A DNA stretch of 32,310 nt, taken from an uncultured Deferribacteraceae bacterium (GTDB taxonomy: Bacteria; Chrysiogenota; Deferribacteres; CAMZNJ01). Shown in pieces: positions 3,438 through 27,943 of the stretch (its first letter is position 1; every line of letters starts with the position of its first letter). A program made the translations under genes and the position numbers. The stretch lies in contig CAMZNJ010000066.1 of NCBI GenBank assembly GCA_947313825.1, forward strand, positions 1-32,310. Direction: 5' to 3'. A model generated the notes under the pieces. It was not told the DNA's origin and ran no database searches. It saw only the letters and a program-made list of their open reading frames with translations.

Positions 3438-5012
3438 CTACCAGAGGCAAGTGTGTTTGTGTTGCACATGGATGAGTTGGCTGTGTGGGTGATTGGTGAA
3501 TACGTTTTCGATATATATTATGCCTTCATGGGATTCGATTATGAATGTTTGTTTTCGTTCCATGGTGTTAAGTTTTTTGGTAATGAATAACTCTTTTACC
3601 GAGCCGTTTTTATGGTGGCAAACAGTTGTGCCGTCGTGGTTGGTGTATCTAGCCACCTTGTCCCCTTGTTGTCGTGTGCGTATTGTGAGTTGTTGTTCGG
3701 CGAGTTTTCCGTCGAATAGTATTTCCACACCGCAATCCGAGCCTCCACGGGGGATACAAACCTGCCCCACACCAGATTTTTTGGTAATGGAATAGGGTTG
3801 TAGCAGGGATTTGTGGTAAACGGCAAAGGTGTTGTAACTAGCTTCACAGCGAAACCCTTGGGGGAGGTGGATGCCCCTGCTGCCGTGATGCCCATGAGTA
3901 CTATGGAGTAGCCGTTGTACCTCATCAAAATGACGAGCTTCAACTCGAAATAATTTTGACATTTGAGCCATGATTATATACCTTCTCTCCACAAACCTCA
4001 AGGCTTTTAGGTCTTGGTTGTGTAATAAGAATCTCCCATGCCCTTCGTATTTTATAACATGTTGAGTCTGTTGGTTGAGGTATGTGTTTAGATCGGTGGA
4101 CTCTTTTTGTAGTCGTTTGACGGCGGGTGCAAGTTCATGAATAATCGGTTGTAGTGTTTTGCGAATGAGATTACGTTTGTACGCTAGGTTGTCGTTGGTC
4201 TCGTCATGGATAAATTCTACGCCGTGTTCATGTAGGTAGTCGAGAACTTCGTCTGTGGTGGTGTTTAGGAGTGGGCGATGAATGGTGATGCTACTGTGGC
4301 TCCCACTGCTCTCACTACTCCCACTGCTCTCACTGCTCCTACTGCTCTCATGGCTCCCACTGCTCCTACTGCTCTCATGGCTCTCAAGGTGCCACTCCAT
4401 CTCTGAGCGAATGCCCCCCATGGTGGTCAAGGATGCCCCTGTTAGCATGTCCAGAACCAGTGTTTCCACGTTATCGTTTTGTGTGTGTGCTGTTAGGATA
4501 GCTGCTGCCCCCACCTCCTTGGCGTACCCTCCCAGAGCGTTGTAACGCAATGTTCGTGCTGCTCCCTCCACTCCGAGGCGGGCAACGAGGGGGTGTGTAT
4601 CGCCGTGGTCGTGGTGTAGCATGTTGAGGCGGATGACGTGGAGGGGTACGTTAATGTTGGGGTGTTGGCATAGCTCCACACAGAATAATTCGTCGCGGTT
4701 ACTACTTTGTCGCAAGTTGTGGTTCACATGGCAGGCGAGTATGTTCAGAGCACCGCCAGCAACGTCAGCACCACCAGCACCGCCAGCAACGTCAGCACCG
4801 TCAGCACCGCCAGCAACCTCAGCAACACCGTACCGACGGTTTGCCGCCACGAGTGCATGGAGCAGGCACGTGGAGTCTTTCCCCCCACTAAGGGCAACAA
4901 CGACAGTTACCTTCCCCCTACGTTCTGTTGTGGAGTTGTTGGGATTGTTGGAGTTGTTGGGGTTGTGTTTACTGAGTACGCGAAATAAATTCTGAAAATT
5001 TATTGTAGTCAT
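3438..5012 (-). CDS. tilS: tRNA(Ile)-lysidine synthetase TilS with two low-complexity insertions (ORF open to 5159; start MTTINFQNLF inferred)
   Basis: PP-loop VALSGGKDSTCLLHAL, HVNHNLR, AAILTAHTQNDNVETLVLDMLTG, RPLL; neighbours hpt-ftsH. Confidence 0.9.
   Translation of the reverse strand: MTTINFQNLFRVLSKHNPNNSNNPNNSTTERRGKVTVVVALSGGKDSTCLLHALVAANRRYGVAEVAGGADGADVAGGAGGADVAGGALNILACHVNHNLRQSSNRDELFCVELCQHPNINVPLHVIRLNMLHHDHGDTHPLVARLGVEGAARTLRYNALGGYAKEVGAAAILTAHTQNDNVETLVLDMLTGASLTTMGGIRSEMEWHLESHESSRSSGSHESSRSSESSGSSESSGSHSSITIHRPLLNTTTDEVLDYLHEHGVEFIHDETNDNLAYKRNLIRKTLQPIIHELAPAVKRLQKESTDLNTYLNQQTQHVIKYEGHGRFLLHNQDLKALRFVERRYIIMAQMSKLFRVEARHFDEVQRLLHSTHGHHGSRGIHLPQGFRCEASYNTFAVYHKSLLQPYSITKKSGVGQVCIPRGGSDCGVEILFDGKLAEQQLTIRTRQQGDKVARYTNHDGTTVCHHKNGSVKELFITKKLNTMERKQTFIIESHEGIIYIENVFTNHPHSQLIHVQHKHTCLW
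4290..4390 (-). repeat. Coding tandem repeat in tilS (SHESSRSSGSHESSRSSESSGSSESSGSHSS)
   Basis: Repeated ctcccactgctctcactgctcctactgctctcatgg segments. Confidence 0.85.
4750..4832 (-). repeat. Coding tandem repeat in tilS (AGGADGADVAGGAGGADVAGGA)
   Basis: Repeated gcaccgccagcaacgtcagcacc segments. Confidence 0.85.
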
Positions 5013-6835: not shown

Positions 6836-7711
6836 CTAGGACTCGCCATGCACTGTGTTGTTGCTGTTGTTAGCAGAGGCGGATTTGTTGTACTCTCTGC
6901 CACCAGCACCACCAGCACCACCAGCACCACCAGCACCACCAGCACCACCAGCACCACCAGCACCACCAGCACCATTGCCACCATTACTACGGTTGCGGTT
7001 GCTGTTACGATTGCGGTTACGATTACGGTTACGGTTACGGTTTCGATTGGCGTTGGAGGAGCGTTCTCCCCCTTTGTCCTCGTCGACATACCCTTCAGGA
7101 ACAATGTGCAACGATTTGAACACACCGCTTCCCTTCACAATCCCTTTGGAGCCTTTGATACTTTTCAGAGCTTTCTGTATCTCTCTTCGTGCTAATGGTG
7201 GTAGGTCGCGGATTATTTCGAGTTGTCCTGTTTTGGCAACGCTATGGGCAGCGTTTACCCCTGCAGTGATGAGTTTTTCCAGATGTTTAGCACGGTGGTT
7301 TTCCACGTCCACGGAAACGGCAATGCCAGAGGAGTCGGCATTCAGCAATCTGTTTACCATGTACTGCAGTGCGTCCAGTGTTTGCATACGTTTTCCGATG
7401 AGTATTTCGGCATCGTTGGTGATAATATTGATGGCGATACGTTTCCCTTCGGTGGTGGTGTTGAGTGTGTAGTTTACTACCCCCATTCGGTCAAGTATGT
7501 CTGCCAAGATTATCCTGCCCTGTTTTGTGTAGTAGTGGGTTTTGTTGAACAGGATTTCGATGGTGGCATCCTGTTGCCCAAAACCTAGGAACCCTTTTTT
7601 GCCTGGCTCGACTACTGTGTATGTTAAGTAGCTAGAGGGGATATTGCGTTCACGCTGAAACTGTAGGAACGCTAATTCAGCTGTTTTCGCTGTTCTTTTA
7701 TGTGTTTCCAT
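6836..7711 (-). CDS. jag: Jag/KhpB RNA-binding protein (Jag_N, KH, R3H) with an NR-repeat and GGA-repeat C-terminal tail
   Basis: GKKGFLGFG Jag_N motif, DAEILIGKRMQTLDALQYMVN KH motif, R3H-like LPPLARREIQKAL; start overlaps yidC stop (TAATG). Confidence 0.95.
   Translation of the reverse strand: METHKRTAKTAELAFLQFQRERNIPSSYLTYTVVEPGKKGFLGFGQQDATIEILFNKTHYYTKQGRIILADILDRMGVVNYTLNTTTEGKRIAINIITNDAEILIGKRMQTLDALQYMVNRLLNADSSGIAVSVDVENHRAKHLEKLITAGVNAAHSVAKTGQLEIIRDLPPLARREIQKALKSIKGSKGIVKGSGVFKSLHIVPEGYVDEDKGGERSSNANRNRNRNRNRNRNRNSNRNRSNGGNGAGGAGGAGGAGGAGGAGGAGGAGGREYNKSASANNSNNTVHGES
6898..7052 (-). repeat. Coding repeats: 9-bp CACCACCAG-type (GGA) and 6-bp CGGTTA-type (Asn-Arg)
   Basis: Direct reading; encodes NRNRNRNRNRNSNRNRSNGGNGAGGAGGAGGAGG. 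Confidence 0.95.
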
Positions 7712-13898: not shown

Positions 13899-16271
<2,373 letters not shown>

Positions 16272-20988: not shown

Positions 20989-21369
20989 TTAAGAGTCAAC
21001 AACCTTGGGCACTTGGTAGTAACCGTCTTGGCTTTTTGGTGCATTGCGTAACATTGCGTCCACACCTAGCCTTGGGGCTTGCATCTCCACTGTTTCCACT
21101 GTTTCCACTGTTTTGTCGCTTTGATGACTCTGTGGTGTGTGTGGTGTTTGTGGTTGCGATAAAATAGTTGGGTAAGTGTGTGCAAACGGCTCCACATTGG
21201 ATGTGTCAACTTTATTTAGTTTGTTGATGTGTGGCATGATCCCGTTGAGGGATTCCAGCATTTCGTCCAGTGCCTCTCCCTGCAGGTCGAGCTTCGACGT
21301 TTTCGCAACTTTTACGACCTCTTCACGGGTAATATCCCGAACAAATATGCTATCACCTTTTATTCCCAT
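20989..21369 (-). CDS. gatC: Aspartyl/glutamyl-tRNA(Asn/Gln) amidotransferase subunit C with low-complexity insert (ORF open to 21519)
   Basis: ITREEVVKVAKTSKLDLQGEALDEMLESLNGIMPHINKLNKVDTSNVEP; adjacent to gatA; SD GGAGG. Confidence 0.9.
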   Translation of the reverse strand: MGIKGDSIFVRDITREEVVKVAKTSKLDLQGEALDEMLESLNGIMPHINKLNKVDTSNVEPFAHTYPTILSQPQTPHTPQSHQSDKTVETVETVEMQAPRLGVDAMLRNAPKSQDGYYQVPKVVDS

Positions 21370-21406
21370 TACAACTTCCCCTCCAAGTGCTACAATAAAC
21401 CACCAT

Positions 21407-21458
21407 ATATTAACACCTCGAAAATATGTTTGCAAGTTTTTTGTATGGCAGGTACAAT
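21407..21458. promoter_or_regulatory. Back-to-back divergent promoters for gatC (-) and mnmG (+) sharing a palindromic -35 hexamer TTGCAA (21430-21435)
   Basis: Minus: TTGCAA-17 bp-TAATAT (21412-21407). Plus: TTGCAA-17 bp-TACAAT (21453-21458). Confidence 0.7.
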
Positions 21459-21503
21459 GACTACCCTGTTGAGTACTGATATTGATACTGGAGAATAACA
21501 CAC

Positions 21504-23471
21504 ATGAACCGCCAAACAACCGAAAACGCCATGGGGAAAACTAACCACAATGGCTACGATATTATTGTTGTAGGTGGTGGACACGCTGCCATCGAAGCCG
21601 CCCTAGCAAGTGCACGCATGGGTGCAAAAACACTCATGCTCACAATAAACATCGACTCCATAGGGGCAATGAGCTGCAACCCCGCAATAGGTGGCATCGC
21701 CAAGGGGAACCTTGTCAAAGACCTAGACGCACTCGGCGGAGAAATGCCCAAAGCCGCCGACGACACTGGGATACAGTTCAAAACACTCAACCGTAAAAAA
21801 GGACCCGCCGTTCGAGGAACGCGAACTCAATCCGACAAACACCTCTACAACAAACGAATGGTCGACACCATCGCAACACAACAAGGACTATTCCTCAAAC
21901 AAGCAATCGTAACCAACCTCATCACACAAAACAACAACGAAATACCACTAAACTCACCACCACAAAAAATAGTGGGAGTAACAACCGACGTTGCCGGAAA
22001 CTTTTACGCACCACGCATCATCATCACAACAGGAACATTCCTCAACGGCACAGTACACATCGGACAAACAAACTACAGTGCCGGACGAATGAACGAATTC
22101 GCCTCCACAGAACTACCCAAATCCATGGCAAAACTAGGACTCACCACCGTAAGACTCAAAACAGGAACACCTGCACGACTCGACATAGAAACAATCAACT
22201 TCAACCAACTACAAGAACACACTGGCGACAAAGACACAAACCCATTCTCCTTCGACAACACCAACCACAAAATGACACAAATCCCATGCCACGCAACCTA
22301 CACCAACAATAACACACACAGCATCATCGAAGCAAACATGCACCTCTCACCACTATTCAGCGGACAAATCACAGGTATCGGTGCACGTTACTGCCCCTCC
22401 ATTGAAGACAAAGTGAAAAAATTCCCCACAAGGGAACAACACATGATAATGCTCGAACCTGAAGGACTCAATAGCCGCGAAATCTACGCCAACGGAACCT
22501 CATCCTCACTGCCAACACATGTACAACTACAAGCATACCGAACTTGCAAAGGATTGGAAAACGTCGAACTAATCCGAAGTGCTTACGCAATCGAATACGA
22601 CGCAATCAACCCACAACAACTCGACATCACACTGCAAACAAAAACCGTACGCGGATTGTACTTTGCAGGACAACTAAACGGCACCAGCGGATACGAAGAA
22701 GCAGCAACACAAGGGTTCATCGCCGGCGTCAACGCTGTGCTATCCCTAGACAACAACAACGAACCGTTCATACTATCACGACACGAAAGCTACATAGGTG
22801 TCATGATCGACGACCTAGTAACAAAAGGTGTGGACGAACCGTACCGCATGTTCACATCACGTGCCGAATTCCGACTCCACCTAAGGGAAGACAACGCCGA
22901 ATACCGACTACTCGAAAAAGGGTACAAACTCGGACTCATTTCAAAAACTCGACTAGAAAGATTCAAACTAGAACAAAACGAAATGACGAAAGAAGTGAAA
23001 CGATTAGAAAAAACCACCATCTTTGCCGACGCAAATCACAAACACGCAACAATACTCAACAAAATCGGAGTAAACATCACCGAGCACACAAAAGCAGCAG
23101 AACTACTCAAACGACCCGAAATATCCTACAACCAAATAGTCGAACTAGTGGGCGAAGCAACACCAAACTCACTCCTGCACCACAAACACCACCAAAGAGC
23201 AATGACACAAGCCGAAATCATAATCAAATACAGCGGGTACATCAAAAGACAATGGGCAGAAATATCAGAAGCTGAACCGTACGACAAAATCAACATACCG
23301 AACAACATGGACTATCGCAACATACAAGGGTTACGTAACGAATTTATCGAAAAATTGGAGAAAATACAACCCGCAACACTAGGACAAGCATCACGAATCC
23401 AAGGTGTAACGCCATCAGCGTTATCACTGCTACACATGCACCTAAAAATAAAGGGGAGGAGCAAAACTTAA
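21504..23471 (+). CDS. mnmG: tRNA uridine-5-carboxymethylaminomethyl modification enzyme MnmG/GidA
   Basis: DIIVVGGGHAAIEAALASARMG, NPAIGGIAKGNLVKDLDALGGEM, KTGTPARLD, GYEEAATQGFIAGVNA, TSRAEFRLHLREDNAEYRL. Confidence 0.97.
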   Translation: MNRQTTENAMGKTNHNGYDIIVVGGGHAAIEAALASARMGAKTLMLTINIDSIGAMSCNPAIGGIAKGNLVKDLDALGGEMPKAADDTGIQFKTLNRKKGPAVRGTRTQSDKHLYNKRMVDTIATQQGLFLKQAIVTNLITQNNNEIPLNSPPQKIVGVTTDVAGNFYAPRIIITTGTFLNGTVHIGQTNYSAGRMNEFASTELPKSMAKLGLTTVRLKTGTPARLDIETINFNQLQEHTGDKDTNPFSFDNTNHKMTQIPCHATYTNNNTHSIIEANMHLSPLFSGQITGIGARYCPSIEDKVKKFPTREQHMIMLEPEGLNSREIYANGTSSSLPTHVQLQAYRTCKGLENVELIRSAYAIEYDAINPQQLDITLQTKTVRGLYFAGQLNGTSGYEEAATQGFIAGVNAVLSLDNNNEPFILSRHESYIGVMIDDLVTKGVDEPYRMFTSRAEFRLHLREDNAEYRLLEKGYKLGLISKTRLERFKLEQNEMTKEVKRLEKTTIFADANHKHATILNKIGVNITEHTKAAELLKRPEISYNQIVELVGEATPNSLLHHKHHQRAMTQAEIIIKYSGYIKRQWAEISEAEPYDKINIPNNMDYRNIQGLRNEFIEKLEKIQPATLGQASRIQGVTPSALSLLHMHLKIKGRSKT

Positions 23472-27373: not shown

Positions 27374-27402
27374 TTGCAAAAATCATGGTTTGGCGTTATT
27401 AT
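27374..27402 (+). promoter_or_regulatory. Promoter for ispF: -35 TTGCAA, 17-bp spacer, -10 TATTAT, ending about 10 bp before the ATG
   Basis: TTGCAA-AAATCATGGTTTGGCGT-TATTAT; ATG at 27413. Confidence 0.6.
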
Positions 27403-27412
27403 ACCTGTGATT

Positions 27413-27943
27413 ATGTTTAAAACTAGAACAGGCATAGGCTTCGACGTCCATCAGCTCGGCGACAACCGTCCACTCATCTTAGGTGGCGTAACCATCCCCC
27501 ATAAAGAGGGCAAAGGCTTAATCGGACACAGCGATGCCGACGTTTTAACACATGCTATTATTGACGCCATACTCGGCTCGGCAAATATGGGGGATATCGG
27601 ACAACAATTCCCCGATACCGACCAACAATACAAAGGGGTTTCGTCCCTCAAACTGCTCAGTGAAGTGGTTAACATGGTGGAGCGTAAATTTACCCCACAA
27701 GGTCTGACGGGATCGAATCCCCCACATAAGATAATAAGCTATATCGATGCTCAGGTAATGGCACAGGAGCCCAAAATAGCCCCTTACATTGCCCAAATTA
27801 GAGCCTCCTTAGCACAATGCATGCACCTGTCGGAGCAGGATGTATCAATTAAAGCAACAACAACCGAACACCTCGGGTTTGTTGGTAGAAAGGAGGGTAT
27901 CGCCGCCATTGCCGTGTGTACCCTAACCGTGCCAGCATCCTGA
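27413..27943 (+). CDS. ispF: 2-C-methyl-D-erythritol 2,4-cyclodiphosphate synthase
   Basis: RTGIGFDVHQL, GHSDADVLTHAIIDAILGSANMGDIGQQFPDTDQQYKG, KATTTEHLGFVGRKEGIAA. Confidence 0.97.
   Translation: MFKTRTGIGFDVHQLGDNRPLILGGVTIPHKEGKGLIGHSDADVLTHAIIDAILGSANMGDIGQQFPDTDQQYKGVSSLKLLSEVVNMVERKFTPQGLTGSNPPHKIISYIDAQVMAQEPKIAPYIAQIRASLAQCMHLSEQDVSIKATTTEHLGFVGRKEGIAAIAVCTLTVPAS

Follow-up and report, generated by a model that had tools for sequence, protein, structure and literature searches.

Results

The gatC-mnmG intergenic region

The stretch of DNA analyzed here (the window, 32,310 nt) is contig C66 of a 1.26-Mb genome in 66 contigs. The organism is a Deferribacterota symbiont that fits the gut symbionts of Rimicaris vent shrimps, among which Deferribacterota are found (PMC10344455), and such shrimps would be its presumed host. 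In the window, gatC, the first gene of gatC-gatA-gatB, and mnmG (gidA) are transcribed divergently from a gap of 134 bp (21370–21503; Table 1). The ATG of gatC at 21369 on the minus strand has the Shine-Dalgarno sequence GGAGGGG, and that of mnmG at 21504 on the plus strand has GGAG. The pairing of gatC with mnmG is found only in this genus, whose taxonomic order comprises two genomes only, the present one and G001, the sole same-genus genome for comparison (hereafter the sister species); it is absent at 28 mnmG loci of other families. Tandem repeats fill 47 TRF rows in the 32 kb, many of them intergenic arrays, and in-frame tandem repeats occur within housekeeping genes (the C-terminus of ftsH, a Jag-like gene, tilS and a C-terminal (DH)n in uvrD) at 304–573, 6900–6974, 4749–4829, 13925–14024 and 4299–4386.

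Table 1. Coordinates of genes and predicted promoter elements in the window.
Feature	Position	Strand	Basis
gatC, first of gatC-gatA-gatB	20989–21369	-	ORF call, Pfam PF02686
mnmG (gidA)	21504–23471	+	ORF call, Pfam PF01134, PF13932
Putative palindromic -35 hexamer TTGCAA, common to both promoters	21430–21435		Sequence; identical in sister species
Putative -10 of mnmG promoter, TACAAT, 5/6 match	21453–21458	+	Sequence; identical in sister species
Putative -10 of gatCAB promoter, TAATAT, 4/6 match	21407–21412	-	Sequence; identical in sister species
Constrained block over both promoters and start of mnmG leader	21391–21478		5/88 differences vs sister species
Promoter-like TTGCAA-N17-TATTAT upstream of ispF	27374–27402	+	Sequence

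The earlier note had pointed to a single TTGCAA in this gap with a -10-like hexamer 17 bp away on either strand, and on direct reading this is exact: TTGCAA is followed by a 17-bp spacer and TACAAT on the plus side, and by a 17-bp spacer and TAATAT on the minus side (plus-strand letters ATATTA), with 40 bp between the two -10s. TTGCAA matches TTGACA at 4/6 positions on both sides, and one base before the gatCAB -10 there is a TG (TGn, an extended -10). With -35 and -10 hexamers and a spacer near 17 bp, both sides have the composition of a sigma70-type promoter. In a strand-wise scan of the gap, with a score that accepts TTGCAA as a -35, the best promoter on each strand was the one formed with TTGCAA, and on the minus strand no other promoter came near it in score. 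TTACAA-N16-TACAAT at 21369 (+) was rejected as a promoter of the gap, because the sister species has AACAAT in place of its -10.

TTGCAA as a -35 element in this genome

Of all hexamers that precede TATAAT at a distance of exactly 17 bp, TTGCAA is the most enriched (5 vs 0.08 expected) in a 393-kb sample of the genome, and it shows no excess at 14–16 or 18–20 bp. We read TTGCAA as a genuine -35 in this genome. Genome-wide, both species have 7 copies of TTGCAA-N17-TATAAT and none of its reversal, counts comparable to those of TTGACA (5 and 6), and in the present genome TTGCAA-N17-TAYAAT occurs 10 times, again against 0 reversed. Several of the TTGCAA-N17-TATAAT sites are orthologous between both species, and the downstream genes, as read from their translations, would include metK, fliM and an ABC transporter among others. 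At two loci (L006 and L087) the site lies about 315–336 nt upstream of a gene reading as ribH, a long leader that might hold a riboswitch.

TTGCAA with a 17-bp spacer had also been reported upstream of ispF, and it is indeed present there (TTGCAA 27374–27379, TATTAT 27397–27402), in a stretch (27374–27412) that is 97% identical in the sister species. The predicted start falls about 2–5 nt before the ATG at 27413, and 27374–27415 contains no Shine-Dalgarno sequence; the ispF mRNA is possibly leaderless.

Chance expectation and conservation of the gap

A genome-wide search for the dual pattern (TANNNT on both sides) returned one site and no enrichment beyond independence: background alone predicts 0.17 sites per genome, and independent promoter enrichment of each side predicts 1.4. 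As the pattern is thus expected some 0.2–1.4 times per genome, motif statistics alone prove little.

Compared with the sister species, the block at 21391–21478, which covers the two promoters and the first part of the mnmG leader, has 5 differences in 88 positions, far below the 27.5% at four-fold degenerate sites of aligned genes (P 2e-7). Its left half differs at 3/39 positions (P 0.002) and its right half at 2/43 (P 0.0001), and these two-species P values are somewhat optimistic because the limits of the block were picked after the alignment had been viewed. The full gap (21372–21503) is 89% identical between the two species, and a 36-bp indel is found in the mnmG leader only. In this comparison of two species the entire block is conserved, without the hexamers or other bases being singled out. 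The first 19 bases past the mnmG -10 (21459–21478, GACTACCCTGTTGAGTACT) are the same in the sister species, which is more than a core promoter needs.

It could be that the mnmG promoter (TTGCAA-N17-TACAAT) alone is real, and that TAATAT on the minus strand is an AT-rich coincidence with gatCAB starting elsewhere. The plus side is indeed the better match, TANNNT is frequent at a distance of 17 bp (about 1.6% of positions), and up to 1.4 dual sites are expected per genome. We nevertheless find this reading unlikely: since constraint falls on the left half of the block as well as on the right, the mnmG promoter alone explains the block poorly, the gap has no other good minus-strand promoter, and a leader of about 30 nt with a Shine-Dalgarno sequence, together with the extended TG, suits gatC.

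Recurrence across the class

Across the class (48 genomes) there are 82 occurrences of the dual 17/17 pattern, some of them copies of what looks like a repeat in one genome (G038), vs 35 and 40 for the off-register spacers 14/14 and 20/20. The off-register spacers served as the control, and a reversed pattern was dropped because its core, AACGTT, differs in frequency. Among the loci examined, 24/60 with the 17/17 pattern lie in divergent gaps vs 12/74 of the off-register loci (Fisher P 0.002), with genes called by a simple ORF picker that was the same for all sets, and when orthologues are collapsed there are 15 independent divergent-gap loci for 17/17 vs 6 and 5 off-register. In G024 and G021 (L092 and L093) a 64-bp divergent gap carries a dual TTGCAA site, and transcription in each direction is predicted to begin right at the start codon, which may reflect leaderless transcripts or coincidence.

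The clearest recurring case (L205–L216) is the gap between divergent genes for a MATE transporter and an exonuclease, both identified by Pfam. In 8/8 genomes of two genera, the core TATTGCAAT is invariant or nearly so, and T-A-N-N-N-T is kept at exactly 17 bp on both sides, while the spacers have diverged and the leaders vary in length. Two further genera of the family also have these genes in divergent orientation, but their gaps lack TTGCAA and have TTGAAA at the aligned position; in one of these gaps (G017) we read TTGAAA followed, 17 bp on, by TAGAAT. TTGCAA being kept in two genera and lost in two, the layout has been long maintained in one lineage yet is replaceable.

The 10-bp sequence TATTGCAATA is found in most of the MATE/exonuclease family and, like the palindromic nature of TTGCAA and the constraint over the entire gatC-mnmG block, would fit TTGCAA being central to an operator for a transcription factor, or to another conserved element, and not a common -35. 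We regard this as very improbable, given that the symmetry at gatC-mnmG extends over just 6 bp, that the enrichment is specific to 17 bp from -10 motifs, and that Rfam gives no match within the window. Whether a common palindromic TTGCAA -35 with symmetric 17-bp spacers constitutes a recurrent and selectively maintained architecture of the Deferribacterota, analogous at the -35 to the bidirectional promoter with a shared -10, seems to us evenly balanced.

Discussion

We suggest that the gatC-mnmG gap probably holds two real back-to-back sigma70-type promoters on one common -35, with polymerase binding that is mutually exclusive at any one moment. What supports the site is its position, its conservation and the recurrence of the layout at divergent gaps, and not the motif alone. 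As TTGCAA reads alike on both strands, sigma region 4 could dock on it in either orientation, as expected from established sigma70 biology, and polymerase would then reach either TACAAT for mnmG or the extended -10 TAATAT for gatCAB. We estimate that mnmG would start at about 21465 (+), with a leader of about 39 nt, and gatCAB at about 21400 (-). With about 65 bp between the estimated starts, and with overlapping polymerase footprints, which are taken from established knowledge, binding would on geometry be mutually exclusive at any instant. One polymerase at a time would thus occupy the site, but as each polymerase leaves after initiation both operons would be transcribed, and competition would be mild at most.

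The earlier note had gone further, interpreting the arrangement as a switch between the tRNA amidotransferase and tRNA-modification genes. Its divergent promoters with a common -35 agree with our results (best on both strands, conserved block, recurring layout); they lend no support to the switch. A true regulatory switch would put mutual exclusion to use, perhaps through a regulator, so that GatCAB and MnmG are kept at opposite levels, and although the footprints overlap and conservation continues past the core promoter, up to 21478, we think that there is very little chance of this. We identified no extended palindrome or regulator site in the gap, and gatCAB and mnmG are both housekeeping. 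Furthermore, E. coli promoters that share a -10 have low basal activity, at which they compete little; either direction gains nothing when its partner is lost, and the two begin to compete only once one side is strengthened (PMC12825309). As the -35 matches TTGACA at 4/6 on either strand, the gatC-mnmG promoters probably have low-to-moderate activity, and a switch is therefore not the default expectation. The common -35 by itself reveals no new regulation of tRNA genes.

In the literature searched, which covered few subscription journals and is thus weak evidence on this point, we found no described case of a symmetrical common -35 with equal spacers. If confirmed, the arrangement would mean that in divergent transcription of bacteria the symmetrical element can be the -35 box as well as the -10, that a single hexamer can constrain the two genes on either side of a compact gap, and that TTGCAA is a main -35 of this lineage, which would aid promoter annotation in symbionts that cannot be cultured.

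Overlapping back-to-back divergent promoters are established in E. coli, at fepA-fes and in the appY region, where the starts are 64 bp apart (PMC4469952). By geometry and gene order the gatC-mnmG promoters belong with them, lying on opposite strands before divergent genes with overlapping footprints of polymerase at sigma70 promoters, and the appY distance is close to the one that we estimate. They differ from fepA-fes and appY in that one palindromic -35 makes up all of the core-element overlap, and in that the two 17-bp spacers are identical. Bidirectional promoters with a shared -10 are a separate class, with starts 7–25 bp apart (PMC12825309, PMC10268837). The gatC-mnmG site has two separate -10s and falls outside this class: its common element is the -35, and its estimated starts lie beyond the 7–25 bp range. 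What it would have in common with the shared -10 promoters is one symmetrical element that admits RNA polymerase in both orientations, but only a single enzyme at a time.
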